Origin: Dehalococcoidia bacterium
Lineage (GTDB): Bacteria > Chloroflexota > Dehalococcoidia > Lucifugimonadales > Lucifugimonadaceae
NCBI GenBank assembly: GCA_002710135.1
Contig: PAOY01000023.1
Span: 1 to 43,596 of the forward strand
Length of the DNA stretch: 43,596 nt
Direction of reading: 5' to 3'
Shown: piece by piece, positions 1,143 through 13,801 of the stretch
Position numbering within the stretch: position 1 is the stretch's first letter
Layout of the letters: the number at the start of each line of letters is the position of its first letter
Program-made: the position numbers and the translations under genes
The notes under the pieces: model-generated
The model's database searches: none
What the model was told of the DNA's origin: nothing
Seen by the model: the letters and a program-made list of their open reading frames with translations, nothing else

Positions 1143-2204
1143 ATGACTTTAAATAATTCAAATAAATTAGGTCCAGGGTTTAACGTAAAAGGGACTGAAA
1201 TTAGATATAGAGATGCATTTAATAATACTTTGAGATCTGAGCTAGAATATGATGAAAATGTTCTAATTATTGGTGAAGATATTTCTGGTGGCTTTGATAA
1301 AAAAACCAAAGAACCATTAGATGCCTGGGGAGGCCCTTTTGCAGCTACAAAGGGTCTTGTTCAAGATTTTGGAGTTGAAAGAATAATGGATGCACCAATC
1401 TCTGAGGCTGGATTTGTTGGTGCAGCAATTGGAGCAGCGCTAACAGGCCTAAGACCTGTCGTAGACTTGATGTATTTTGATTTTACTACTGTTGCATTTG
1501 ACCAATTATTATCTAATGCCGCCAAAAGTAGATATATGTTTGGAGGACAAACTAAGGTTCCGCTAACTCTTTTTGCTAGGTCCGGAGGAGGAACTGGTCA
1601 TGCGGCTCAACACTCCAGTGCATTTTATTCTATCTTGGCGCATATTCCTGGATTAAAAGTTGTTACTCCTTCCGATCCTTACTCTGTAAAGGGATTGCTT
1701 TCAGCAGCAATTAGAGATGATGATCCTGTTTTTGTCGTGAATGATAAAAAATTGATTAATATGACAGGATTTGTCCCCGACGAGGATTACCAAATAGAGT
1801 TAGGAAAAGGCAGATGTCTTAAGGAGGGTACTGATGTTACTTTAGTTGGTATGAGTTATACTTCGGTTGTATGTATGGAAGCTGCAGAAAAACTAGAAAA
1901 AATGGATATAAATGCTGAGGTTATAGATCTTTTATCATTATCTCCATTAGATGAAAAAATTGTTATTGATTCAGTGAAAAAAACAAATAGGATAGTTGTT
2001 GTAGATGAAGACAATCCCAGAGCTAGTATTGCAAGTGAAATTGCAGCGGTTGTTTCAGATAAAGCATTTGATTATTTAGATGCTCCAGTAAAAAGAGTTA
2101 CGGCTCCTCATACACCTGTTCCATATAGCAAAGGGTTAGAAGAAGAATTTATGCCAGATAGCGATGATGTTTTTGAGACTGTAAAAAAACTGCTAGATAT
2201 CTAG
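1143..2204 (+). CDS. Thiamine-pyrophosphate dehydrogenase E1 component, beta subunit
   Basis: ORF with IGEDISGGFD, DAPISEAGFVGAAIGAALTGLRPVVDLMYFDF, DEDNPRASIASEIAA motifs; directly follows E1 alpha. Confidence 0.9.
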   Translation: MTLNNSNKLGPGFNVKGTEIRYRDAFNNTLRSELEYDENVLIIGEDISGGFDKKTKEPLDAWGGPFAATKGLVQDFGVERIMDAPISEAGFVGAAIGAALTGLRPVVDLMYFDFTTVAFDQLLSNAAKSRYMFGGQTKVPLTLFARSGGGTGHAAQHSSAFYSILAHIPGLKVVTPSDPYSVKGLLSAAIRDDDPVFVVNDKKLINMTGFVPDEDYQIELGKGRCLKEGTDVTLVGMSYTSVVCMEAAEKLEKMDINAEVIDLLSLSPLDEKIVIDSVKKTNRIVVVDEDNPRASIASEIAAVVSDKAFDYLDAPVKRVTAPHTPVPYSKGLEEEFMPDSDDVFETVKKLLDI

Positions 2205-2543
2205 TTTTTTAATCTCATCAATCAACTCAGTTTTTTTATCACAAATAACTGTTTCATCATTTATAGCATAAGAAAGAAGGCTATTGTATGGATAAATTCC
2301 GCTTTCGTGACCATCTGACCACAGAGGTTGCAATGCATATTTACCAACTATAAGATAATCTACTACAATTATATCGTCTGGTACTTCAGTTACTTTTAGT
2401 AACTTTTTTCCAGTCAATTCTTCCACACAATTTGCACAAGCACATTGTAGTCTTAGATATTTATATGGATATAGGCATGATATATCCTTAGGCCAAATAA
2501 TTTCTAAGCCATCACTTAATCTATTTACAGCTTTTGGTTCCAT
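2193..2543 (-). CDS. DUF971 / gamma-butyrobetaine hydroxylase-like N-terminal domain protein
   Basis: RLSDGLEIIWPKD..., LRLQCACANCVEELTG, PLWSDGHESGIYPYNSL pattern of the DUF971 family. Confidence 0.8.
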   Translation of the reverse strand: MEPKAVNRLSDGLEIIWPKDISCLYPYKYLRLQCACANCVEELTGKKLLKVTEVPDDIIVVDYLIVGKYALQPLWSDGHESGIYPYNSLLSYAINDETVICDKKTELIDEIKKLDI

Positions 2544-2643: not shown

Positions 2644-3705
2644 ATGAGTGATGTAATAAAAGTTGGAATTGTTGGTGCTGGTGGGAATACTGTCTTAAAG
2701 CATATTCCTCTACTTCAAAAAATTGAAGGAGTTGAAATCGTTTCTGTAGCAAATAGAACAATTAAGTCCTCTAGCGCAGTTGCTTCTCAATTTGAAATTA
2801 AGAATTACTATGATAGTTGGCATGAAGTAGTTTATGATAACGGGATCGACGCTGTTGTAATTGGTACTTGGCCATATATGCATAAGAAACTTACTGTTGA
2901 AGCATTGGAGTCAGGGAAGCATGTGTTATGTGAAGCTAGAATGTGTATGAATGCTCAAGAAGCTATGGAAATGTATGACTGTGCTCAATCATATTCTAAT
3001 TTAGTAGCTCAAATAGTGCCTGCCCCCCATACATTACCTATAGATAAAACAATAAAAAGACTAATTTCCTCAGGATATATTGGGAATTTGGTAAATCTTA
3101 GAGGCATGGTTACAGCGGGAAATGATTTTCCTAAAGAAAACCAAGAATTTCATTGGAGAAATAATCGTGATTTATCAGGTAATAATATTATGCAGATGGG
3201 GATTTGGTACGAAGCTATTATGAGGTGGTTAGGCCCAGCAAAATCTATTACAGCAAATGCTCAGACTATAATGAATACTAGAGTAGATTATGATGGTAAT
3301 TATGCATACACTGATATCCCAGATCATCTTGACGTTCTTTGTGAAATGGTTAGTGGAGGTACTGCTAATTTGCAATTTACTATGGTTTCAGGAATGGCTC
3401 CAGAATCAGAAATGTGGATTCATGGTACAAAAGGAACTTTAGTTATTAAGACTGAAACAACCAATGATCCAGGCGCACCTGGATTAAAATTATATGGAGC
3501 TGAACAGGGGCAGAACCAATTAGAAGAAATAGATATCCCTGAAGAAGAAAAAGGATCTTGGAGAGTTGAAGAAGAATTTATAAATGCAATACGTGGTGAG
3601 GAAATTATTACTCATACCAATTTTACGGATGGGGTTAAGTATATGAAGTTTACCGATGCTATTTTTGATTCTTATTCAACTGGTCAAAAGATTTACTTGG
3701 ATTAG
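2644..3705 (+). CDS. Gfo/Idh/MocA family oxidoreductase
   Basis: N-terminal GIVGAGGNTVLKHIP Rossmann motif, EALESGKHVLCEARM, C-terminal MocA-like domain. Confidence 0.88.
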   Translation: MSDVIKVGIVGAGGNTVLKHIPLLQKIEGVEIVSVANRTIKSSSAVASQFEIKNYYDSWHEVVYDNGIDAVVIGTWPYMHKKLTVEALESGKHVLCEARMCMNAQEAMEMYDCAQSYSNLVAQIVPAPHTLPIDKTIKRLISSGYIGNLVNLRGMVTAGNDFPKENQEFHWRNNRDLSGNNIMQMGIWYEAIMRWLGPAKSITANAQTIMNTRVDYDGNYAYTDIPDHLDVLCEMVSGGTANLQFTMVSGMAPESEMWIHGTKGTLVIKTETTNDPGAPGLKLYGAEQGQNQLEEIDIPEEEKGSWRVEEEFINAIRGEEIITHTNFTDGVKYMKFTDAIFDSYSTGQKIYLD

Positions 3706-3706
3706 T

Positions 3707-4471
3707 ATGAATAAGATTGACTTGAATGCTGATATTGGAGAATCCTTTGGTTCATATAAACTCGGCTATGATGAAGAAATAATTAAGTATATTTCATCTT
3801 CTAATATTGCTACAGGATTTCATGCAGGAGATCATAATTGGATAAAAAGGACAGTTGATTTATCTCAAAAATATAATGTTGCAATAGGAGCTCATCCTTC
3901 TTATCCTGACCTTGCTGGATTTGGAAGAAGAGATATGGATTTACCACCTGATGAAATTGAAAATTTGATTAAGTATCAAGTTGGAGCGTTAATTGGCTTT
4001 GTTGGATTAGAAAACATTGCACATGTAAAGCCACATGGGGCTTTGTACAATAAAGCAGTCAAGGATGAAAAAACTGCAAAAGCTATTATCAATGCAATAA
4101 AGTCTATTAGTAATGATCTAATACATGTTGTTTTGGCAGGATCTATGTGGGAAAAATTAGCCACAGATTTAGGAGCTAAAATTTCTAGAGAAACTTATGC
4201 AGATAGAGAGTTGATGGAAGATGGGTCTTTATGCCCAAGATCTGTTGATGGTTCTGTTATTGAAGATTCACAAAAAATTTCAGATCGAACTATTAAAATG
4301 ATCAAAAAAAATGAAGTAATTACTTTTAATGGTGAGAAAATTAAGGTTGATTTTGATTCAATTTGTTTGCATGGAGATACTAAGGGTGCATTAGATATTG
4401 CTAAAAGCTTGAATAAATCATTTGCAGAAAATAATGTAATTGTTACTTCTATGTCTAATATTATTTTATGA
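3707..4471 (+). CDS. pxpA: 5-oxoprolinase subunit A (LamB/YcsF family)
   Basis: DLNADIGESFG...IATGFHAGDHNWIKRTV...IGAHPSYPDLAGFGRRDM. Start refined to the ATG at 3707 (ORF track starts in-frame at 3656, overlapping the upstream gene). Confidence 0.93.
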   Translation: MNKIDLNADIGESFGSYKLGYDEEIIKYISSSNIATGFHAGDHNWIKRTVDLSQKYNVAIGAHPSYPDLAGFGRRDMDLPPDEIENLIKYQVGALIGFVGLENIAHVKPHGALYNKAVKDEKTAKAIINAIKSISNDLIHVVLAGSMWEKLATDLGAKISRETYADRELMEDGSLCPRSVDGSVIEDSQKISDRTIKMIKKNEVITFNGEKIKVDFDSICLHGDTKGALDIAKSLNKSFAENNVIVTSMSNIIL

Positions 4472-5136
4472 TAGAAAAATTTAGGATAAGTTTTCATGGT
4501 GATTGCTCTCTTGTGATCAACTTTTCTGAAAATATTGAAATAGAAACTAATAGAATATTATATAAAATATTAAACTCATTTGAATCTGATCTTAAATCTA
4601 GTGAATTTATAGAAGATATTTACCCAACTTTTAATAGCATAATCATTGATTATAATAATTTGCTAATTGACTTTGAAAAATTGAAAGCTTTTGTAGAAAA
4701 AACATTATTGGAATTAATGTATGATTTGCAACTTCATTCAGATAGTGAGGAAGTTATAGAGATTCCAGTTAATTATGGTGGATTTTACGGTCCAGATCTT
4801 AGTATGATGTCTGATAAACTAAAAATTTCTGAAAAACAAATTGTAAAAATTCATACTTCTCGTACATACAGAATTTATATGATTGGTTTTATGCCTGGAT
4901 TTCCTTACTTAGGTGGATTAGATGAAAAAATTTCTTTTCCAAGACTTTCTACTCCTAGAATTTCAGTCCCTGCAGGATCAGTAGGAATTGCAGGAATTCA
5001 AACTGGTGTATATCCGTTTGAGTCTCCTGGTGGATGGAATATTATCGGTAAAACTGAAACAAAACTATTTGATACAGAAGCAAATCCTCCAGCACTACTA
5101 AAAGGGGGAGTAAACTTAAGATTTTTAGAGATATGA
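4468..5136 (+). CDS. pxpB: 5-oxoprolinase subunit B (KipI family)
   Basis: GFMPGFPYLGGLDEKISFPRLSTPRISVPAGSVGIAGIQTGVYPFESPGGWNIIGKT signature; ATGA overlap with pxpA. Confidence 0.93.
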   Translation: MIEKFRISFHGDCSLVINFSENIEIETNRILYKILNSFESDLKSSEFIEDIYPTFNSIIIDYNNLLIDFEKLKAFVEKTLLELMYDLQLHSDSEEVIEIPVNYGGFYGPDLSMMSDKLKISEKQIVKIHTSRTYRIYMIGFMPGFPYLGGLDEKISFPRLSTPRISVPAGSVGIAGIQTGVYPFESPGGWNIIGKTETKLFDTEANPPALLKGGVNLRFLEI

Positions 5137-6173
5137 TAAAAATTATAAATTCAGGAATATTATCAAGTTTTCAAGACAAAGGTAGATTTGGCCAGAAAAA
5201 AATAGGAGTTTCTAAATCTGGTGCATTAGATCTTTTTTCATTCCAATTAGCAAATAGACTTTCTGGAAATGATATCAACGAACCATGTATAGAAACCCTT
5301 GGTGGGTTTTCATGCGAATTTTATACTGATTTAGTTCTTTCAATTACAGGACCTTCTGACTCTTTTACTATTAACAATAATTATATTTATAAAACTAATT
5401 CTTCATTTAATGTAATGTCAGGTGATAAATTAGAGATCCCATTTCCCCAAAATGGAAATATTTTTTATTTATCAGTTTCAGGTGGATTCAATATTGATAA
5501 AATTTTAGGTTCTTACTCATATCATCAACCTTCGAGTATCACAAATAATTTGAGGATTTCTTCAGGAGATGAAATCCATGTAAAAACATCAAATAATAAA
5601 AATATATTTCTATCAGAAAATTCTTTTTTTAAAAAATGGATACTCAATGATGAAAATATAAATATTATTTATGATGATAAATTCAAATCTCAAAACTTAA
5701 GAAAAATGTTTGAAAATAAAGAATTTACTGTTTCAGATCAATTCAGTAGGCAAGGCATTAGATTGATTGGAGATCCCATTGATGAATTCAAAGAACAAAA
5801 TGAAATTTCTTCAGAAGTTTCTGCTGGCACTGTACAAATCCCTCCTGATGGTCAACCGATAATTTTATTGAATGATTCTCAAACAACTGGAGGATATAAA
5901 AAAATAGGCGTAATCCCAAGTTTCGAATTATCAAAAATTTCTCAAAAACCTATTTTATCTAAAATAAAATTTTCTGAGATTTCATTAAGTAATTCTATAA
6001 AGAATTATCGGGAAATGATGTCAGAATTTGATAATATCAAAATTTATAATTACACAAATAGAATACTAAAAATAAATGATAGATTAATTTCTGTTCAAAT
6101 TTTAGAAAATAATAGTATAATGGCGATATCTAGTAATAAGCAATTTGACATAATTGAGGAAAGTTTTGAATGA
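5133..6173 (+). CDS. pxpC: 5-oxoprolinase subunit C (KipA / urea-carboxylase carboxyltransferase-like domain)
   Basis: SGILSSFQDKGRFGQKKIGVSKSGALDLFSFQLANRLSGND and PPDGQPIILLNDSQTTGGYKKIGVI signatures; ATGA overlap with pxpB. Confidence 0.93.
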   Translation: MIKIINSGILSSFQDKGRFGQKKIGVSKSGALDLFSFQLANRLSGNDINEPCIETLGGFSCEFYTDLVLSITGPSDSFTINNNYIYKTNSSFNVMSGDKLEIPFPQNGNIFYLSVSGGFNIDKILGSYSYHQPSSITNNLRISSGDEIHVKTSNNKNIFLSENSFFKKWILNDENINIIYDDKFKSQNLRKMFENKEFTVSDQFSRQGIRLIGDPIDEFKEQNEISSEVSAGTVQIPPDGQPIILLNDSQTTGGYKKIGVIPSFELSKISQKPILSKIKFSEISLSNSIKNYREMMSEFDNIKIYNYTNRILKINDRLISVQILENNSIMAISSNKQFDIIEESFE

Positions 6174-6543
6174 TTCAGTTTCGGATGGATTGAGTTTATT
6201 TTGGATAGGAACTAGTGTAGTTTTTTTAGTTTTAATAATACTTTTAATATCTATAAATATACTAACTTTTTTAGAGAAAAAAATTTTTCAAAAAGAATCA
6301 AAAAAAGTTATAGTAACTAATCAAGAAAATGGTGATAGTTTATTAGAAATTGCTGCTGCTATTGCTGTCTCATTTTATAAAAAAAGTAAAAATTCAACAA
6401 ATGAAATTGCAGCTGCTGTTGCTGTTTCTTTGTTTGAAAATAATAAAAGTAAAGCAAGTAAAAGTACTGAAAATACACTTCAATCATCATGGATAACAAT
6501 AAATAGATCAAGAATGATGCAAAAAAAGTTTAGAAGGATTTAA
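6154..6543 (+). CDS. OadG/MmdD-like small membrane subunit of a Na+-translocating decarboxylase
   Basis: Single N-terminal TM segment (FWIGTSVVFLVLIILLISINIL) and Ala-rich EIAAAIAVS / EIAAAVAVS segments as in OadG-type subunits; position just upstream of BCCP and beta subunit. Confidence 0.7.
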   Translation: MRKVLNDSVSDGLSLFWIGTSVVFLVLIILLISINILTFLEKKIFQKESKKVIVTNQENGDSLLEIAAAIAVSFYKKSKNSTNEIAAAVAVSLFENNKSKASKSTENTLQSSWITINRSRMMQKKFRRI

Positions 6544-6544
6544 A

Positions 6545-7006
6545 TTGATGAAATATAAATTAAATATTAATGGCCAACAATTTGATGTCGAAATTTTATC
6601 TGAAAATTATAATTCTTATGAAGTAAGTGTCAATGGTGAAATATTAATGGTAAGCAAAGATATTAGTACAAGATCAAGTATCCCAGAGCCTAAAATACCT
6701 CAGGCGAAACAGAGTTTGCCTCCACAAGCTCCTTCAAATGCTATTAAAAATAATAATCAACCCAAATCTGAATCTTTAGATGCAAAGGTAGATGGTAATT
6801 CGATTAAGGCTCTAATGCCAGGGAAGGTCTTAAAAGTTTTAGTTTCTGAGAATGAAGAAGTAGAATCGGGTACTCCATTGTTGGTTATTGAATCTATGAA
6901 AATGGAAAATATTATATCTTCCAATAAATCCGGTAAAGTGGGCACTATCTATGTGAAAGTAGATGATAATGTTCAATATGATCAACCATTAGTTGAAATA
7001 AATTAA
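6545..7006 (+). CDS. Biotin carboxyl carrier protein (MmdC/GcdC/OadA-C type)
   Basis: C-terminal biotinyl domain with VIESMKMENIISSNKSGKV; biotinyl-Lys codon at 6899-6901; Pro/Gln-rich linker. Confidence 0.9.
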   Translation: MMKYKLNINGQQFDVEILSENYNSYEVSVNGEILMVSKDISTRSSIPEPKIPQAKQSLPPQAPSNAIKNNNQPKSESLDAKVDGNSIKALMPGKVLKVLVSENEEVESGTPLLVIESMKMENIISSNKSGKVGTIYVKVDDNVQYDQPLVEIN

Positions 7007-7022
7007 GTCTGAGAATATTTTT

Positions 7023-8222
7023 ATGATCGATTACATAGAGCCACTAATTGAAGGTATAAACGACTTACTATCTAATCCTAAGATGATAATAATGTGGCTT
7101 ATTTCATTCTTTTTATATTATGTTGGAATTTATAAAAAGAAAGAACCTCTTTTATTGGTTCCTATTTCTACAGGTATCTTATTAGCAAATCTTCCTATGG
7201 GTGAATTAATTAGAATAGGTGGAAATGGAGAACCAGATGGATTTCTCAGAATTTTTCAGAATATTGGAATGACTAATGATATACTGCCTTTATTAATATT
7301 TTTAGGTATGGGTGCATTGACAGATTTTGAACCCGTTCTATCTAATCCTAAGACGTTATTATTGGGTGCTGCTGCCCAAATTGGTGTATTTGCAGCTTTA
7401 TTAGGTGCTTTATTTATTAGCATGACACCATTTTTTGATTTTGGAATTTTAGAGGCAGCTTCTATAGGTATCATAGGAGGAGCTGATGGACCTACTACAA
7501 TATTCATATCAACAAGGATGAGAGAATTAGGAAATAGTTTGCCTTTATATAATATGAGCGATATCGTGGGAGCAACTGCTGTTGCTGCTTATTCATATAT
7601 GGCTTTAGTCCCTATAATTCAACCTCCTATAATAAGATTCTTTACTACAAAAAATGAGAGACTAATTAGGATGGATTATTCTGAAAAGAAAATTTCTAAA
7701 AGAACTAAAATAATATTTCCAATTTTGACAATTTTGATTGTTAGTATTTTAGTCCCGGATGCATCTCCTCTTATTTCAATTATGATGTTTGGTAATATTT
7801 TGAGAGAATCTGGAGTAGTTGACAGATTAGCAAAAACTGCCCAAAATGAATTGATGAATATAGTTGTTATTCTTCTAGGTTTATCTGTTGGAGCCACAAT
7901 GCCTGCTAGTGTTTTTTTGAAAATAGAAACAATATCTATTTTTATTCTTGGGTTAGTATCTTTTGTGTTTGCAACTATTTCTGGAATATTACTTGCAAAA
8001 TTTATGAACTTTTTTCTTAAGAAACCTATAAATCCAATGATAGGAGCAGCAGGAGTATCTGCCGTACCTATGGCTGCTAGAGTAGTTCAAAATGAAGCTT
8101 TTAGAGAAGATCCAGATAACTATATCTTGATGCATGCAATGGGTCCTAATATAGCAGGAGTTATTGGCACAGCTACTGTGGCAGGAGTACTTTTGGCTGT
8201 TGTTCCACAATTGGTGGCATAA
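7023..8222 (+). CDS. Na+-translocating decarboxylase beta subunit (OadB/MmdB/GcdB family)
   Basis: Multi-TM protein with GMGALTDFEPVL, GGADGPTTIF (conserved Asp region) and NELMNIVVILLGLSVGAT (conserved Na+-coupling region). Confidence 0.94.
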   Translation: MIDYIEPLIEGINDLLSNPKMIIMWLISFFLYYVGIYKKKEPLLLVPISTGILLANLPMGELIRIGGNGEPDGFLRIFQNIGMTNDILPLLIFLGMGALTDFEPVLSNPKTLLLGAAAQIGVFAALLGALFISMTPFFDFGILEAASIGIIGGADGPTTIFISTRMRELGNSLPLYNMSDIVGATAVAAYSYMALVPIIQPPIIRFFTTKNERLIRMDYSEKKISKRTKIIFPILTILIVSILVPDASPLISIMMFGNILRESGVVDRLAKTAQNELMNIVVILLGLSVGATMPASVFLKIETISIFILGLVSFVFATISGILLAKFMNFFLKKPINPMIGAAGVSAVPMAARVVQNEAFREDPDNYILMHAMGPNIAGVIGTATVAGVLLAVVPQLVA

Positions 8223-8225
8223 ATA

Positions 8226-8981
8226 ATGGAATATTCTATAAATATTTACATATTCTTATCAGTAATTTGCTTATTAATTGGCTTTCTAGGTGGATTTTTA
8301 GGGATTGCATTAGGTGCTGTAAGATTACCTATTATAATTATTTTGGGTATAGAGCCAATCTTAGCTGCATCTACTAATTTGCTGGCTGTAATTTTTGGTT
8401 CAACAGCAGCATTAATACCTGCGATAAAACAAAACCGAGTTCCAATAAAATCCTCTTTTAGAATAGCTATACCCTCAATGATTGCAGCATTTCTAGGAGG
8501 CTATTTTGCTTTTCAAATACCTGAAATATTTCTCTTAATAATCATGATTTTTTGTCTTGTTTTATCCGGATTAGTCATGACATTTTATAAAATAAGTGAA
8601 TTTGAAGACAAACCTTCAAAAAAAAATTCAATATATGAAATTTTAGTAGGAATTTTTATATCTTATTTTGGAGGGACTGTTGGTTTAGCTTTGGGCGTAT
8701 TAAGAGTTCCAGCTTTTGTTTATTTCTTAAGGATGAATATAAAGAAAGCAGGAGGTATAAACTTATTTTTGTCAGTATTAGTTGGAATCTCAGCTTATTT
8801 AGGTCATTCATTTTCAGGAGGGTTTGACTATCTTTTAGTTTTGTCTGTTGTTCTTCCAACTGTAATCGGAATGTATTTTGGATCAAGGTTTGTAGCAATT
8901 GCGAATGATAATCAGCTTCGCAAGATTTTAGGTGTTACACTACTGATTTTGTCTTTAGTTCTATTGTTAAGAGAGATTTAG
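8226..8981 (+). CDS. TSUP family (TauE/SafE) membrane transporter
   Basis: Hydrophobic protein with GFLGGFLGIALGAVRLP and repeat half YFGGTVGLALGVLRVPAFVYFLRM typical of TauE/SafE. Confidence 0.85.
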   Translation: MEYSINIYIFLSVICLLIGFLGGFLGIALGAVRLPIIIILGIEPILAASTNLLAVIFGSTAALIPAIKQNRVPIKSSFRIAIPSMIAAFLGGYFAFQIPEIFLLIIMIFCLVLSGLVMTFYKISEFEDKPSKKNSIYEILVGIFISYFGGTVGLALGVLRVPAFVYFLRMNIKKAGGINLFLSVLVGISAYLGHSFSGGFDYLLVLSVVLPTVIGMYFGSRFVAIANDNQLRKILGVTLLILSLVLLLREI

Positions 8982-9014: not shown

Positions 9015-9440
9015 TTATTTTTTAGTTTCCCAAAAAATCTCACCAATTTCTTCTAAAGCAGCCTTGAATTCCTTAGCTTTTCCAAGATCTACATTTACTT
9101 TTACAAAAGATCCAAGTTTACAAGCATTCCAAACTTTTTCATGGAGATCAGGATACTTTTCCAAATGCTCTGGTTTGAAATAATCTGTCCATATTACTAA
9201 AATGTCATCTTTTGCTTTTTTAGCGTGTTCTTCTTTTGCTGCAACATACCTTGCCATGGAGTTGCCTAGACTTGCAGATGGGCCTTTAGAGTAATCTAAC
9301 TCATCAATCAACTCTGTCATTCTGACAACTGTTTGAGCTGCCTGAATAGCGTCTTTTGGGTCATATATGCCACACGGGATATCGCAATGACTAGTTGCTT
9401 CATGCACATTAAATACTTTTTCAAAAATATTATTTAACAT
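9015..9440 (-). CDS. sodN: Nickel-containing superoxide dismutase precursor
   Basis: 17-residue leader followed by HCDIPCGIYDP, the Ni-hook signature of Ni-SOD. Confidence 0.95.
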   Translation of the reverse strand: MLNNIFEKVFNVHEATSHCDIPCGIYDPKDAIQAAQTVVRMTELIDELDYSKGPSASLGNSMARYVAAKEEHAKKAKDDILVIWTDYFKPEHLEKYPDLHEKVWNACKLGSFVKVNVDLGKAKEFKAALEEIGEIFWETKK

Positions 9441-9487: not shown

Positions 9488-9952
9488 ATGACAAATTTTC
9501 GAAGTTTGATAATACCTTTCATTAAAAATTTATTGAATATACTAATTTTTAGAAAAAATTACATGATTTTTAAAATATCTGAAATCAATAGTAATAGTAT
9601 GGAACCAAATTTCCATGAAGGTTCATATTACCTGTTGAGAAAAATATCTGACTTTTCAAAAATCAAAAGAAATGATGTAGTAGTTTATTTTTGTGATATT
9701 CATTCTATAAATCACATAAAAAGAGCCGTCGCTCTACCAAATGAAAACTTGAAAATTATTGATAAATATTTTTTTGTAAATCAAGAAAAAATACAAAATA
9801 TTTCTATTCCTTTTTCAGTAAATTTTGATTGTGATATAGGTGAAAACGAATATTTTATGTTGTCTGATAATACATCCTTATTTGGTAAATCATGTGATTC
9901 TGTAAAAACTGGTCCAATCAAGAAAGAAAATATTTTAGGTTCAATTATTTGA
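9488..9952 (+). CDS. sodX: S26-type peptidase, Ni-SOD maturation protease (SodX-like)
   Basis: Ser box SNSMEPNFHEGSYYLL and Lys box INHIKRAVALPNE of signal-peptidase-like proteases; divergent neighbour of sodN. Confidence 0.85.
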   Translation: MTNFRSLIIPFIKNLLNILIFRKNYMIFKISEINSNSMEPNFHEGSYYLLRKISDFSKIKRNDVVVYFCDIHSINHIKRAVALPNENLKIIDKYFFVNQEKIQNISIPFSVNFDCDIGENEYFMLSDNTSLFGKSCDSVKTGPIKKENILGSII

Positions 9953-11219
9953 AGTGATTATCTATGAGTTTTTTTGAAGACAATGCTGCTGTCTCCATAG
10001 TATTAGGTAAGCTAGATAAGGTCCAGTCTCCTACAAAATATATGTTTTTATTTTTTCTCCTTATATTATTATTTTTCATTTTGATTTGAGTTGCTTTTGG
10101 AGATCTTATAATAAGGGATCTTATAGTTTTTACTTTTTTTGAAATATTTAATTCTTTTCTAAGGATTTTTTCATATTCAAGAATTAGCTTTTCATTTTGG
10201 ATTTTTAACTTATTGTTCGCAGCGCTTATCGAAACTGATATCCTATATTCTTTTTTTGATTTAATTAATTTATTATCCGAAAATACCCATTCTAGTTTAG
10301 AGTCTGAAAAACTAATAAAATCTTCATCGATTATTTTTTTATCAAACCAAAAATAAATGTTTATGATTGAATCTGTTTTTACGTTGTTATCAATAAGATT
10401 TTCACCATAATTTTTTATCCCTCCTAAATTTGTTGCTACTATAGCTTTGTCGTAAATGTAATTTTCTTTTTTACTTCTGAGGGAAATTTTTTTTTGAAAT
10501 GATTTGATTTCTTCTATTTTTTCTGTTTTGAATAAATTTGAATTATTATTTTTCAAATAGGAATGGAAATTTTTTTCTATAATTTCGCTAAATGGTTTTT
10601 TAAAATAACAAATCCCTACATTTTTTTTATAGTCGAAGATCATTAGTTTAAATAGATTTTTTGCATGATTTATTGAAATTTTATTCAATTCAGAATTGAA
10701 CGCAGGTTTGGAAATTATGTCCCAAAACTTTTTTATCATATTATTGTTTTGCCCATTCTGTTTTAACCAGGATAAAAAAGAAGTTTTTGAATTATTATCT
10801 TTAAGTTTTGATAATTTGTATAAGCATATTATTATTTTTATCCTTTCTGAAAATTTTAAGTTTTTATAGCCTATTACAGAAAACATCATATTAAGAGGAA
10901 AGAAAGGAATTCTTGATTTTAGGAGATATTTTTTCCCTTTATATTGTATTGGGATATTTAGTTTTTTCTCAATATTTAAATAATGGTTCAAGCCTAATTT
11001 ATCCAATACTTCTAGAAAAGTTTTATATGAAGGTAAAAATATATGCTGACCTATATCAATTGTAATATTTTTATTTTGTATTGAACCTGCTCTGCCACCT
11101 AAATTTTTTTTAGCTTCAAAAATATCGACTTTATACCCTTTTTCTATAAGTAATACGGATGCAGTTATTCCAGAAATTCCTCCACCAATTATTGCTATTT
11201 TTTCATTATTTTTTTTCAA
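9945..11219 (-). CDS. hpnE: FAD-dependent hydroxysqualene dehydroxylase-like amine oxidase (HpnE family)
   Basis: N-terminal IAIIGGGISGITASVLLIEKGYKVDIFEAKKNLGGRA, then DIGQHIFLPSYKTFLEVLDKLG typical of HpnE; next to an HpnC-like synthase. Confidence 0.78.
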   Translation of the reverse strand: MKKNNEKIAIIGGGISGITASVLLIEKGYKVDIFEAKKNLGGRAGSIQNKNITIDIGQHIFLPSYKTFLEVLDKLGLNHYLNIEKKLNIPIQYKGKKYLLKSRIPFFPLNMMFSVIGYKNLKFSERIKIIICLYKLSKLKDNNSKTSFLSWLKQNGQNNNMIKKFWDIISKPAFNSELNKISINHAKNLFKLMIFDYKKNVGICYFKKPFSEIIEKNFHSYLKNNNSNLFKTEKIEEIKSFQKKISLRSKKENYIYDKAIVATNLGGIKNYGENLIDNNVKTDSIINIYFWFDKKIIDEDFISFSDSKLEWVFSDNKLIKSKKEYRISVSISAANNKLKIQNEKLILEYEKILRKELNISKKVKTIRSLIIRSPKATQIKMKNNNIRRKNKNIYFVGDWTLSSLPNTMETAALSSKKLIDNHFK

Positions 11220-11221
11220 TT

Positions 11222-12124
11222 TTATTTTAGATAAGATTTTATAAATGATTTGAGTATTATGATAAATTTTTCTAGATAGTTTGTTTTTGGTTTTTTCTGT
11301 AGGATTTTTGTTTTATTAGTACTGATTTTTTTTAATATCTTTTCTCCGGAACTAATAAATATTTGTATAATAAGTGCATCTTTTCTCTTAAGTAAAGATG
11401 TAAGCTTCTTACCATCTTTATAAAGCTTTTTATTAATACTTACCAGTTCAATGATTAATTTTTCAAAATTTTTTTTATAAGTTTTATTTTCAAAAATATT
11501 TTTATCACTTAATTTTGATAAATCAATTTTATGTTTAGATAATAATTCAGATGGTATATATGTCCTATTTTTAATTAAGTCTATTTTGATATCTTGTATA
11601 AAGTTAGTCAGTTGAAGCGCTGTGCATATATTATTAGAAAGTTCTATTAGCTTTTTCTCTTTATAGCCCATGATTCTTAGCACAATTTCTCCAACAGGAT
11701 TTGCTGAATGCTCGCAATAATAGAATAGATCATTCAATGAAGAATACTTATTTATTTTTTGATCTATGTGATTTGCTTTTATTAATTTTTCAAAAGGAAG
11801 TTTTGGCAAATTATATTTTTTTAATGTTTTTTCTAGAGCAATGAATATAGGATTTGAAGCTTTGTTTTCAAAAGCAAGCTCTAATTCTTTTTTCCAAATT
11901 TCTAATCCTTCAGAGGTGATTTCTTTATCTAGTTCGTCACCTATGTAATCGATTCCTCTTGAAAATGCATAAATGCTGGCAAAATCATTCATTAGATTTT
12001 TTTTGATAAAAAACATATAGATTGGAAAATTTTCATAATTTTCATTTATGATTTTATAGCAAATCTTTAAAGATTCATCGTAACTTAAGTAATTATCATT
12101 TTTGTTAAAGATTAGATTTTTCAT
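11222..12124 (-). CDS. hpnC: Squalene/phytoene synthase family protein, HpnC-like
   Basis: NYENFPIYMFFIKK...IYAFSRGIDYIGDE, CEHSANPVGEIVLRIMGY and LQLTNFIQDIKIDLIKNRTYIP match the HpnC pattern. Start set to the ATG at 12124, just after the upstream stop; ORF track extends to 12166. Confidence 0.8.
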   Translation of the reverse strand: MKNLIFNKNDNYLSYDESLKICYKIINENYENFPIYMFFIKKNLMNDFASIYAFSRGIDYIGDELDKEITSEGLEIWKKELELAFENKASNPIFIALEKTLKKYNLPKLPFEKLIKANHIDQKINKYSSLNDLFYYCEHSANPVGEIVLRIMGYKEKKLIELSNNICTALQLTNFIQDIKIDLIKNRTYIPSELLSKHKIDLSKLSDKNIFENKTYKKNFEKLIIELVSINKKLYKDGKKLTSLLKRKDALIIQIFISSGEKILKKISTNKTKILQKKPKTNYLEKFIIILKSFIKSYLK

Positions 12125-12125
12125 A

Positions 12126-12782
12126 CTATATAATTTTTGAAAACTCATAGAATAAATTCTTATCAATTATTTCATTCTTTATAGATTTTGCTTTGATTTT
12201 GTAAAAATAAAGCTCTTTTAGAAATCTTTTGCTTTGACTCCAAAATCCTTTACTTTTAAAATTAGGAATTGGAAATTTTGAATTTATTATTCTGATTATT
12301 GATATATTAATTGAATTTTCTTGAATAATCTCATTCAATCTAGCTGAATATCCATCTATGAATGTACCGTGTAAATTGTCACTGATCCATTTTTTAGCAT
12401 TACTTCTGTCGATTATACTGTGTGCATTTTCTAATTCAATTCCAGATCCAACATAATGCTGAAAGGCTAATTTTTCTAAAATGTCACAAATTGATTTATT
12501 TAATTCTTCTGAAGTGTCTATCCATCTGTCTTCTCTAGGGACAGCCCAATTAATTGGTTTTGCATTAATGCTTATAGTTTCTTTTGCAACTATAATGCTA
12601 TTATCTTGAATCTGATTTACTGTTTGTAGTGCAAAGTCTAGAGAAATAATTTTTTCAGGCCTTTTATTATCTAATAATTCTTTTAATTTTGTGAAATCAT
12701 CATTTTTTCTTAAGAAGTAAAATTCAAAACCATCTATTGGTTTATTGATTTTAAGATGCTTATTAGTAATTATTAGGTTCAT
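12126..12782 (-). CDS. Divergent nucleoside phosphorylase-like protein (possibly HpnG-related)
   Basis: Weak fold-level match: IISLDFALQTVNQIQDNSIIVAKETISI and TFIDGYSARLNEIIQENSINISIIRIINS align in pattern to phosphorylase motifs; hpn-type gene context. Confidence 0.45.
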   Translation of the reverse strand: MNLIITNKHLKINKPIDGFEFYFLRKNDDFTKLKELLDNKRPEKIISLDFALQTVNQIQDNSIIVAKETISINAKPINWAVPREDRWIDTSEELNKSICDILEKLAFQHYVGSGIELENAHSIIDRSNAKKWISDNLHGTFIDGYSARLNEIIQENSINISIIRIINSKFPIPNFKSKGFWSQSKRFLKELYFYKIKAKSIKNEIIDKNLFYEFSKII

Positions 12783-13801
12783 TATCTCTTGCGATGCATT
12801 AGAAAAAAATTTGTATCTAAAAGCATATTTTTATATTTATCAGAAATCTCTAATTTCTTAATCAATGAAATTGTATGTTTGTACTTATCATTCAAAATTG
12901 ATTCACAGTAAGATTCGACATCATATTTATCCATTAATTTTAGTATAGTTTCTTTTTTCTCTTCGTCTATTTCGTTATTGAAGATATTGTAAACTATTTT
13001 TTTATCATCTGAATCACTAGATTGTATAAGCTTTAAGATAGGGAAAGACTTTTTTTTCTTTAATATATCGCTTCCAATTGGTTTGCCAAATTCACTGTTC
13101 CCCCATATTCCTAGTACATCATCCTTAATTTGGAACATATGGCCGAAGGTTTTTCCAATATCCTCAAAAATTTCAGTTGTTTGTTTATCTTTTGCTTCAA
13201 GAATTGATCCTAGAGTTACAGAAGTTTTGATCAATGCACCAGTTTTCTTTTCTATCATTTGCAAGTAATCATCCACATCTATTGTTTCTCTTGTTTCAAA
13301 ATCTATATCTAAGTATTGTCCCTCTATGACAGCTATGCAGGTTTCATTTATAATTTTTCTGAGTTCAATTAGTTTCGTTTTATCTTCTGAGTTTATTTCT
13401 TCTAGTGCTTTACTTGCCAATGCATGCATAGAGCTTCCAGAAATAATTCCAATTTGTTCTCCCCAAATTTTCCAAACAGTTTTTCGATTTCTTCTTATTT
13501 CATCTCTATCTTCTATATCGTCATGTATTAATGAAAAATTGTGAAAAAGTTCTATGGACATAGCAAGAGGTAAAATATTTTGTTCTTTACCACCTAGGGC
13601 TTCATTTATTAGCATCATAATCGATGGCCTAAATGCTTTTCCTGTACTATCAGATTCCTTTCCTTTTTCATCAATCCATCCTAAAAAATATCTGTGCGTT
13701 CTATATAAAGGGTCTAATAGATTTTGATAAAACCCTTTAGTGAATTTATTAAGAGAAGATTGGTACTGATTAAATAATACTGGTAATTCTGGTTTTCTCA
13801 T
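12782..13801 (-). CDS. Polyprenyl (farnesyl/geranylgeranyl-type) diphosphate synthase
   Basis: First Asp-rich motif HDDIEDRDEIRRNRKTVW and second motif QIKDDVLGIWG; GKAFRPSIMML. Confidence 0.92.
   Translation of the reverse strand: MRKPELPVLFNQYQSSLNKFTKGFYQNLLDPLYRTHRYFLGWIDEKGKESDSTGKAFRPSIMMLINEALGGKEQNILPLAMSIELFHNFSLIHDDIEDRDEIRRNRKTVWKIWGEQIGIISGSSMHALASKALEEINSEDKTKLIELRKIINETCIAVIEGQYLDIDFETRETIDVDDYLQMIEKKTGALIKTSVTLGSILEAKDKQTTEIFEDIGKTFGHMFQIKDDVLGIWGNSEFGKPIGSDILKKKKSFPILKLIQSSDSDDKKIVYNIFNNEIDEEKKETILKLMDKYDVESYCESILNDKYKHTISLIKKLEISDKYKNMLLDTNFFLMHRKR

Follow-up and report, generated by a model that had tools for sequence, protein, structure and literature searches.

Gene content of the pxp-oad operon

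The stretch of DNA considered here (the window) comprises positions 1 to 43,596, forward strand, of contig PAOY01000023.1 from a Dehalococcoidia bacterium (assembly GCA_002710135.1; G000), a SAR202-type metagenome-assembled genome (MAG) of 0.94 Mb that is 65% complete. It harbors a group of genes in which the subunits of a 5-oxoprolinase, PxpABC, are followed by a stand-alone biotin carboxyl carrier protein (BCCP) set between relatives of the gamma and beta subunits of Na+-coupled decarboxylases, OadG and OadB. The gene order is pxpA-pxpB-pxpC-oadG-BCCP-oadB-tauE, head to tail between 3707 and 8981 and all on the plus strand. The six genes from pxpA to oadB are intact, with identities backed by Pfam and NCBIfam (marginally for OadG):

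3707..4471, +: pxpA, 5-oxoprolinase subunit A (LamB/YcsF), starting at ATG 3707; PF03746, E=6.9e-89
4468..5136, +: pxpB, CT_C_D, the KipI-like half of a urea-carboxylase-type carboxyltransferase; PF02682, E=6.1e-63
5133..6173, +: pxpC, CT_A_B, the KipA-like half of a urea-carboxylase-type carboxyltransferase; PF02626, E=2.9e-56
6154..6543, +: OadG-like gamma subunit; PF04277 (OAD_gamma), 25.9 bits, below the cut-off of 27
6548..7006, +: stand-alone BCCP; PF00364 (Biotin_lipoyl), E=7.1e-17
7023..8222, +: OadB, beta subunit of Na+-coupled carboxybiotin decarboxylase/carboxylase type; PF03977 (OAD_beta), E=5.4e-141

The pxpA/pxpB and pxpB/pxpC junctions are ATGA overlaps, the OadG frame, with a TTG at 6154 or 6166 as its start codon, overlaps the 3′ end of pxpC, and the 16 bp between BCCP and OadB form the widest gap among the six genes. 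An earlier note on this DNA had described six contiguous genes on one strand, overlapping or no more than 16 bp apart, which the frames and the Pfam and NCBIfam matches confirm; its further statement, that neither an OadA/MmdA/GcdA carboxyltransferase nor the biotin carboxylase AccC lies in the window, is true of the window.

PxpA scores 322 bits against NCBIfam NF003814 (cut-off 226) and has PDB relatives 1v6t, 2dfa and 1xw8. PxpB lies above the TIGR00370 cut-off and is related to 2phc, 2zp2 and chain B of 5dud, with PxpC being related to chain A of 5dud, to 3mml/9yx5 and to urea carboxylase 3va7. Entry 9yx5 lists PxpBC-like chains as well as AccA3. The OadG-like protein is composed of a single hydrophobic stretch followed by an AAAIAVS-type tail, and its counterparts in relatives score 22–28 bits against PF04277; the assignment is based on conserved position and layout as much as on this marginal score. 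The BCCP carries the motif ESMKMEN, with the biotinyl Lys codon at 6899-6901.

OadB scores 470 bits against PF03977 and 461 bits against TIGR01109, and aligns lengthwise with the Salmonella typhimurium beta subunit (6iva). Residues D203, S382 and N412, which belong to the Na+ site in 6iva, are identical in the window protein, as are R389 and three residues important for function, Y229, N373 and G377 (PMC7274780); S419 is replaced by Thr. Elsewhere in the SAR202 order, two OadB proteins have the Na+-binding Asp203 replaced by Glu.

Linkage to pxp genes and exclusion of AccC

Conservation was assessed across 100 relatives, mostly incomplete MAGs, in which pxpC and oadB were considered linked when lying ≤6 kb apart; associations were evaluated by Fisher tests, those at family level using one genome per family and treating families as independent. 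OadB is present in 76/100 relatives and PxpC in 78/100, and the two genes are linked in 65 of the 71 relatives with both (52/55 in the window's family and 13/16 in other families), so the conserved pxpABC+BCCP+OadB/G neighbourhoods that the earlier note had proposed to look for do exist. Among the six unlinked exceptions, the genes lie far apart on one large contig in G009, G065 and G070 and on two large contigs in G099, with G003 and G039 possibly reflecting assembly breaks. Co-occurrence of OadB and PxpC also holds by family (16/4/3/16, p=9e-5). Two arrangements are evident: the window's family has the collinear order pxpABC-oadG-bccp-oadB, and other families (L258, L259, L266-L273, L153, L160) have a divergent layout, pxpCBA / oadB-bccp. 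Adjacency that survives such a rearrangement argues for a functional tie. The gene order is retained in same-genus genomes in which PxpC is just 41–67% identical, and across the family; this retention, together with linkage in 65/71 relatives, rules out chance adjacency. OadB loci outside the SAR202 order have no pxp neighbours, and pxpC loci of other Chloroflexota have no BCCP, AccC or OadB within 1.5 kb.

The window genome, at its 65% completeness, yielded no biotin carboxylase, and the PF02785 profile identified AccC in just 34/100 genomes. With an AccC protein as query, intact AccC of the typical kind matched at E<1e-85, and genomes without AccC gave solely carbamoyl-phosphate synthetase (CarB, ~1e-7), a sensitivity control which rules out that AccC was merely overlooked by the Pfam model. 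AccC is missing as well from genomes assembled as one contig (G009, G019, G035 and G092). OadB and AccC are largely mutually exclusive: 15 genomes have both, 61 of the 76 OadB-bearing genomes have OadB without AccC, 19 have AccC without OadB and 5 have neither (p=2.2e-7, 100 genomes), with corresponding counts of 6/14/17/2 when one genome per family is used (p=2.4e-4). At least six of the 15 genomes with both belong to genus g9, where the biotin carboxylase domain sits within carboxylases of ~1,100 amino acids that have a carboxyltransferase domain of their own.

Gene swaps are also apparent. G010 and G014, both of the window's family, retain pxpABC and the same single BCCP, have no OadB and possess AccC, which in G014 adjoins the MmdA-like gene; the two genomes may represent one event. 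Their OadG remnant has lost the transmembrane helix and kept an AAAIAVALA-type tail (L150:9900-10200, L151:8134-8481). The persistence of this tail in OadB-less genomes hints at a separate function, perhaps that of tethering BCCP to a carboxyltransferase. In nine genomes AccC-BCCP follows (dnaX-)recR-recO, and in G079 (OadB present, AccC absent) OadG-OadB directly follows dnaX-recR-recO, a single case of exact slot replacement. Beyond SAR202, AccC itself stands beside pxp and BCCP genes, in the Staphylococcus aureus pxpBCA-accBC operon (PMC11315280) and in pxpBC-BCCP-AccC-pxpA operons on lactobacilli plasmids, so that OadGB occupies the position held there by AccC. The pxp–accB/accC neighbourhoods mentioned in the earlier note are thereby found in S. 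aureus and lactobacilli, and not, within 1.5 kb, in other Chloroflexota.

The carrier appears to be shared. Biotin/lipoyl domain matches were translated in eight relatives (G002, G005, G009, G010, G013, G014, G019, G035), each of which has one biotin-type (MKM) carrier, in 8/8 cases the BCCP of this system; the window BCCP is likewise the sole biotin-type carrier found in its own genome. In the genomes so examined, a second, dedicated BCCP for AccDA is ruled out, the other matches being E2 lipoyl domains or short partial matches. Fused AccDA was confirmed in G009 and G087, and by extension from these two cases a further PF01039 match present in many genomes was taken as AccDA. The malonyl-transferase family PF00698 occurs in 12/12 genomes tested, and malonyl-coenzyme A (malonyl-CoA) is presumably made in these cells. 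Given a need for malonyl-CoA, AccDA, a sole BCCP and no AccC, OadGB is by elimination the candidate loader of BCCP.

Proposed Na+-driven carboxylation and its alternatives

In the proposed mechanism, OadG-OadB would constitute a membrane biotin carboxylase of the Na+-decarboxylase type with BCCP as carrier. Entry of Na+ down its gradient through OadB would power the loading of CO2/HCO3− onto BCCP-biotin, opposite to the direction in which decarboxylase pumps are classically described, making the AccC dependent on adenosine triphosphate (ATP) dispensable. PxpBC would then move the carboxyl group from carboxy-BCCP to its substrate, 5-oxoproline or a related lactam/amide, after which PxpA would open the activated ring, by analogy with urea carboxylase and allophanate hydrolase. 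Conversion of 5-oxoproline to glutamate has a Keq of ~0.035 (PMC13274462) and, being uphill, needs an energy source. As BCCP is the sole biotin carrier found, carboxy-BCCP would also feed AccDA, which provides malonyl-CoA for lipids, as well as an MmdA-like enzyme whose gene lies outside the operon.

Replacement of AccC by OadGB working in the carboxylating direction is considered probable, on comparative genomics: gene content, linkage, the single carrier, missing AccC, the OadB/AccC exclusion and intact Na+ residues. If this holds, PxpBC is likely to be one user of carboxy-BCCP, a view drawn from homology and from pxp-accBC operons elsewhere; for both parts together, the case is evenly balanced. 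We infer the direction of flux, the use of carboxybiotin by PxpBC and its substrate from sequence comparisons, the substrate being taken from the family name. The wider proposal, of a marine lineage without any biotin carboxylase in which Na+-driven OadGB supplies all carboxybiotin on one shared BCCP, whether destined for malonyl-CoA and lipids or for a 5-oxoprolinase that depends on biotin, is put forward tentatively, the balance tilting a little against it. The earlier note had offered Na+-driven biotin carboxylation in place of ATP and AccC as one of two options, with PxpABC as the beneficiary; this option fits the comparative data best, and is broadened here, since OadGB more probably serves several carboxyltransferases with PxpBC among them.

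Each component has known counterparts. The system resembles OadABG (St/Kp OAD, PDB 6iva/6iww) in its OadB (~45–50% identical to known beta subunits), in every Na+-site residue tested and in having a biotin carrier and a gamma-like subunit, but differs in an operon without alpha subunit, a separate BCCP, flanking pxpABC and the reverse direction proposed. MmdA-E similarly has a separate carrier with beta and gamma-type subunits, and an MmdA-like protein exists elsewhere in relatives, although its gene is unlinked here and the family has no methylmalonyl-CoA mutase. PxpABC with AccB/AccC (S. aureus, lactobacilli) shares pxpBC beside a BCCP gene and pxpA in the same operon, whereas here OadG/OadB stand where AccC would be. 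Urea carboxylase (KlUC, 3va7) has a carboxyltransferase domain homologous to PxpC/PxpB and carries out carboxylation followed by hydrolysis, as proposed here; unlike it, the window system has split proteins, no biotin carboxylase domain and PxpA instead of allophanate hydrolase. Reversal of oxaloacetate decarboxylase (OAD) and methylmalonyl-CoA decarboxylase (MMD) in vitro, carboxylating pyruvate and acetyl-CoA, is indicated by the title of Dimroth and Hilpert (1984), which PMC3578206 and PMC7274780 both cite. For Nitrospina gracilis, also a marine bacterium, OAD reversal in vivo, with biotin carboxylated at the expense of a Na+ gradient, has been proposed (PMC3578206), for pyruvate only, whereas here AccC is missing from the entire cell and the unit is linked with PxpBC and one shared BCCP. 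The open-access literature yielded no paper in which OadGB is proposed to replace AccC in general or is tied to PxpABC, and no relevant SAR202 paper on oxoprolinase or OAD.

To our knowledge, AccC is close to universal among bacteria; it serves as a drug target, and in the standard account of fatty-acid synthesis ATP powers the biotin step. Should the proposal be true, malonyl-CoA and lactam activation would be paid for by the seawater Na+ gradient, not ATP, in a widespread ocean lineage, and the in vitro reversal of 1984 would become a cell's standard route. It would also help to explain pxpBC beside biotin genes in other bacteria, and the long unclear mechanism of PxpB/PxpC becomes directly testable.

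Several findings weigh against Na+-driven loading of BCCP for PxpBC and other users. The genomes are mostly incomplete MAGs, the window genome at 65% among them, and families are phylogenetically non-independent; the 15 genomes holding both OadB and AccC, and G096 (95% complete) holding neither, depart from exclusion. Possible classical partners also exist. A single PYC_OADA protein of 505 amino acids, OadA/PycB-like and without a biotin domain, is encoded on another contig of the window genome (L001:595-2112), its best PDB match being the 5S subunit of transcarboxylase; such a protein occurs in 9/9 same-genus genomes, and between families OadA co-occurs with OadB (16/20 versus 5/19, p=0.0012). 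An MmdA-like carboxyltransferase is nearly universal in relatives, scoring ~780–800 bits against TIGR01117, a model with a cut-off of 999. Finally, pxpABC and oadG-bccp-oadB are separated by 142 kb in G009, other Chloroflexota carry pxpABC without BCCP nearby, and the published PxpABC model is one of ATP-dependent phosphorylation without biotin (PMC13274462).

The last three points also favour a reading in which OadGB-BCCP replaces AccC solely for AccDA and the MmdA-like enzyme, with PxpABC an ordinary ATP-dependent 5-oxoprolinase sharing the operon. This is held to be unlikely in view of the pxp-oadB linkage in two arrangements, the pxpBC-BCCP-AccC operons in Bacillota and the presence of PxpBC-like and AccA3 chains in one PDB entry, 9yx5. 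Rather unlikely too is a conventional Na+-exporting decarboxylase, in which BCCP, OadG and OadB work with an unlinked MmdA-like or OadA-like alpha subunit and pxpABC is merely co-regulated. Both candidate partners, the co-occurrence of OadA with OadB and the residues of working pumps in the window OadB speak for it. However, the OadA-like protein is missing from most other genera of the family, and 30 linked relatives lack both OadA and AccC. Methylmalonyl-CoA mutase, present in most other families, is missing from the window's family with 2 exceptions in 61 (a fragment, and a frame of 1,113 amino acids that matches more weakly), leaving the MmdA-like enzyme without evident methylmalonyl-CoA and a classical pump without substrate. 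Such a pump would also leave AccDA without carboxybiotin, and the AccC exclusion and swaps unexplained.

Carboxybiotin might instead arise by transcarboxylation from oxaloacetate or methylmalonyl-CoA (the OadA-like protein as 5S, the MmdA-like one as 12S), OadB venting or buffering. The 5S match and the adjacency of MmdA and OadA genes in other families agree with this, but OadA and the mutase are both missing from most family genomes and a mere vent would not exclude AccC, making it quite improbable. The least probable course is the other option of the earlier note, in which PxpBC passes a substrate carboxyl group to BCCP and OadB decarboxylates it, pumping Na+. Operon structure alone favours it; no carboxylated PxpBC substrate is known, hydrolysis of the 5-oxoproline lactam itself requires energy input, and where OadB has been lost it is AccC, solely a biotin-loading enzyme, that accompanies pxpABC-BCCP. 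The OadB/AccC exclusion and the missing mutase count against this option as well.

With regard to the alpha subunit, the absence noted earlier stands for the operon and not for the genome, and the notion that none exists anywhere is overturned by the OadA-like and MmdA-like genes. The same genes, with the OadA-OadB co-occurrence, leave the suggestion that PxpBC replaces the classical alpha subunit unsupported. The earlier note had named co-occurrence of OadB with an OadA/MmdA encoded elsewhere as grounds for rejecting its proposal; this association is seen between families, against which stand the 30 linked relatives without OadA. The OadA/5S-like sequence of L001 ends right where a biotin domain would start, and the protein could use the BCCP of the operon.

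Flanking genes

Two genes directly adjoin the six discussed above:

2644..3705, +: Gfo/Idh/MocA oxidoreductase; PF01408, E=4.7e-22; ends 1 bp before pxpA
8226..8981, +: TauE/SafE-type permease (tauE); PF01925, E=7.7e-40; 3 bp after oadB

The operon probably extends into tauE as its last gene, and TauE is retained 3′ of OadB across family loci; the Gfo/Idh/MocA neighbour is kept upstream in loci L032-L043, L144 and L147. In other genera of the family (L144:10893-18950, L146, L151, L157) the operon continues into genes for a DapA-like protein, TauE, methylisocitrate lyase and methylcitrate synthase, and further into a PrpD-type dehydratase, a thiamine pyrophosphate (TPP) enzyme and a cupin, thus joining the methylcitrate cycle to the biotin/Na+ genes. 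The window's genus has no methylcitrate-cycle genes at this position.

Further upstream lie genes for pyruvate-dehydrogenase-type E1 alpha and beta (129-2204), as in most relatives, and between these and the Gfo/Idh/MocA gene a gene with a GBBH-like N-terminal domain (2193-2543, minus strand), also conserved in relatives. Downstream, as judged by eye, a protein with the motif HCDIPCGIYDP (9015-9440, minus strand) resembles nickel superoxide dismutase and is accompanied by a possible signal-peptidase-type gene (9488-9952, plus strand), a pair conserved 3′ of the operon. Four genes on the minus strand (9945-13801) look, again by eye, like an amine-oxidase-type desaturase, squalene/phytoene synthases and a polyprenyl synthase, suggesting hopanoid or carotenoid precursors.

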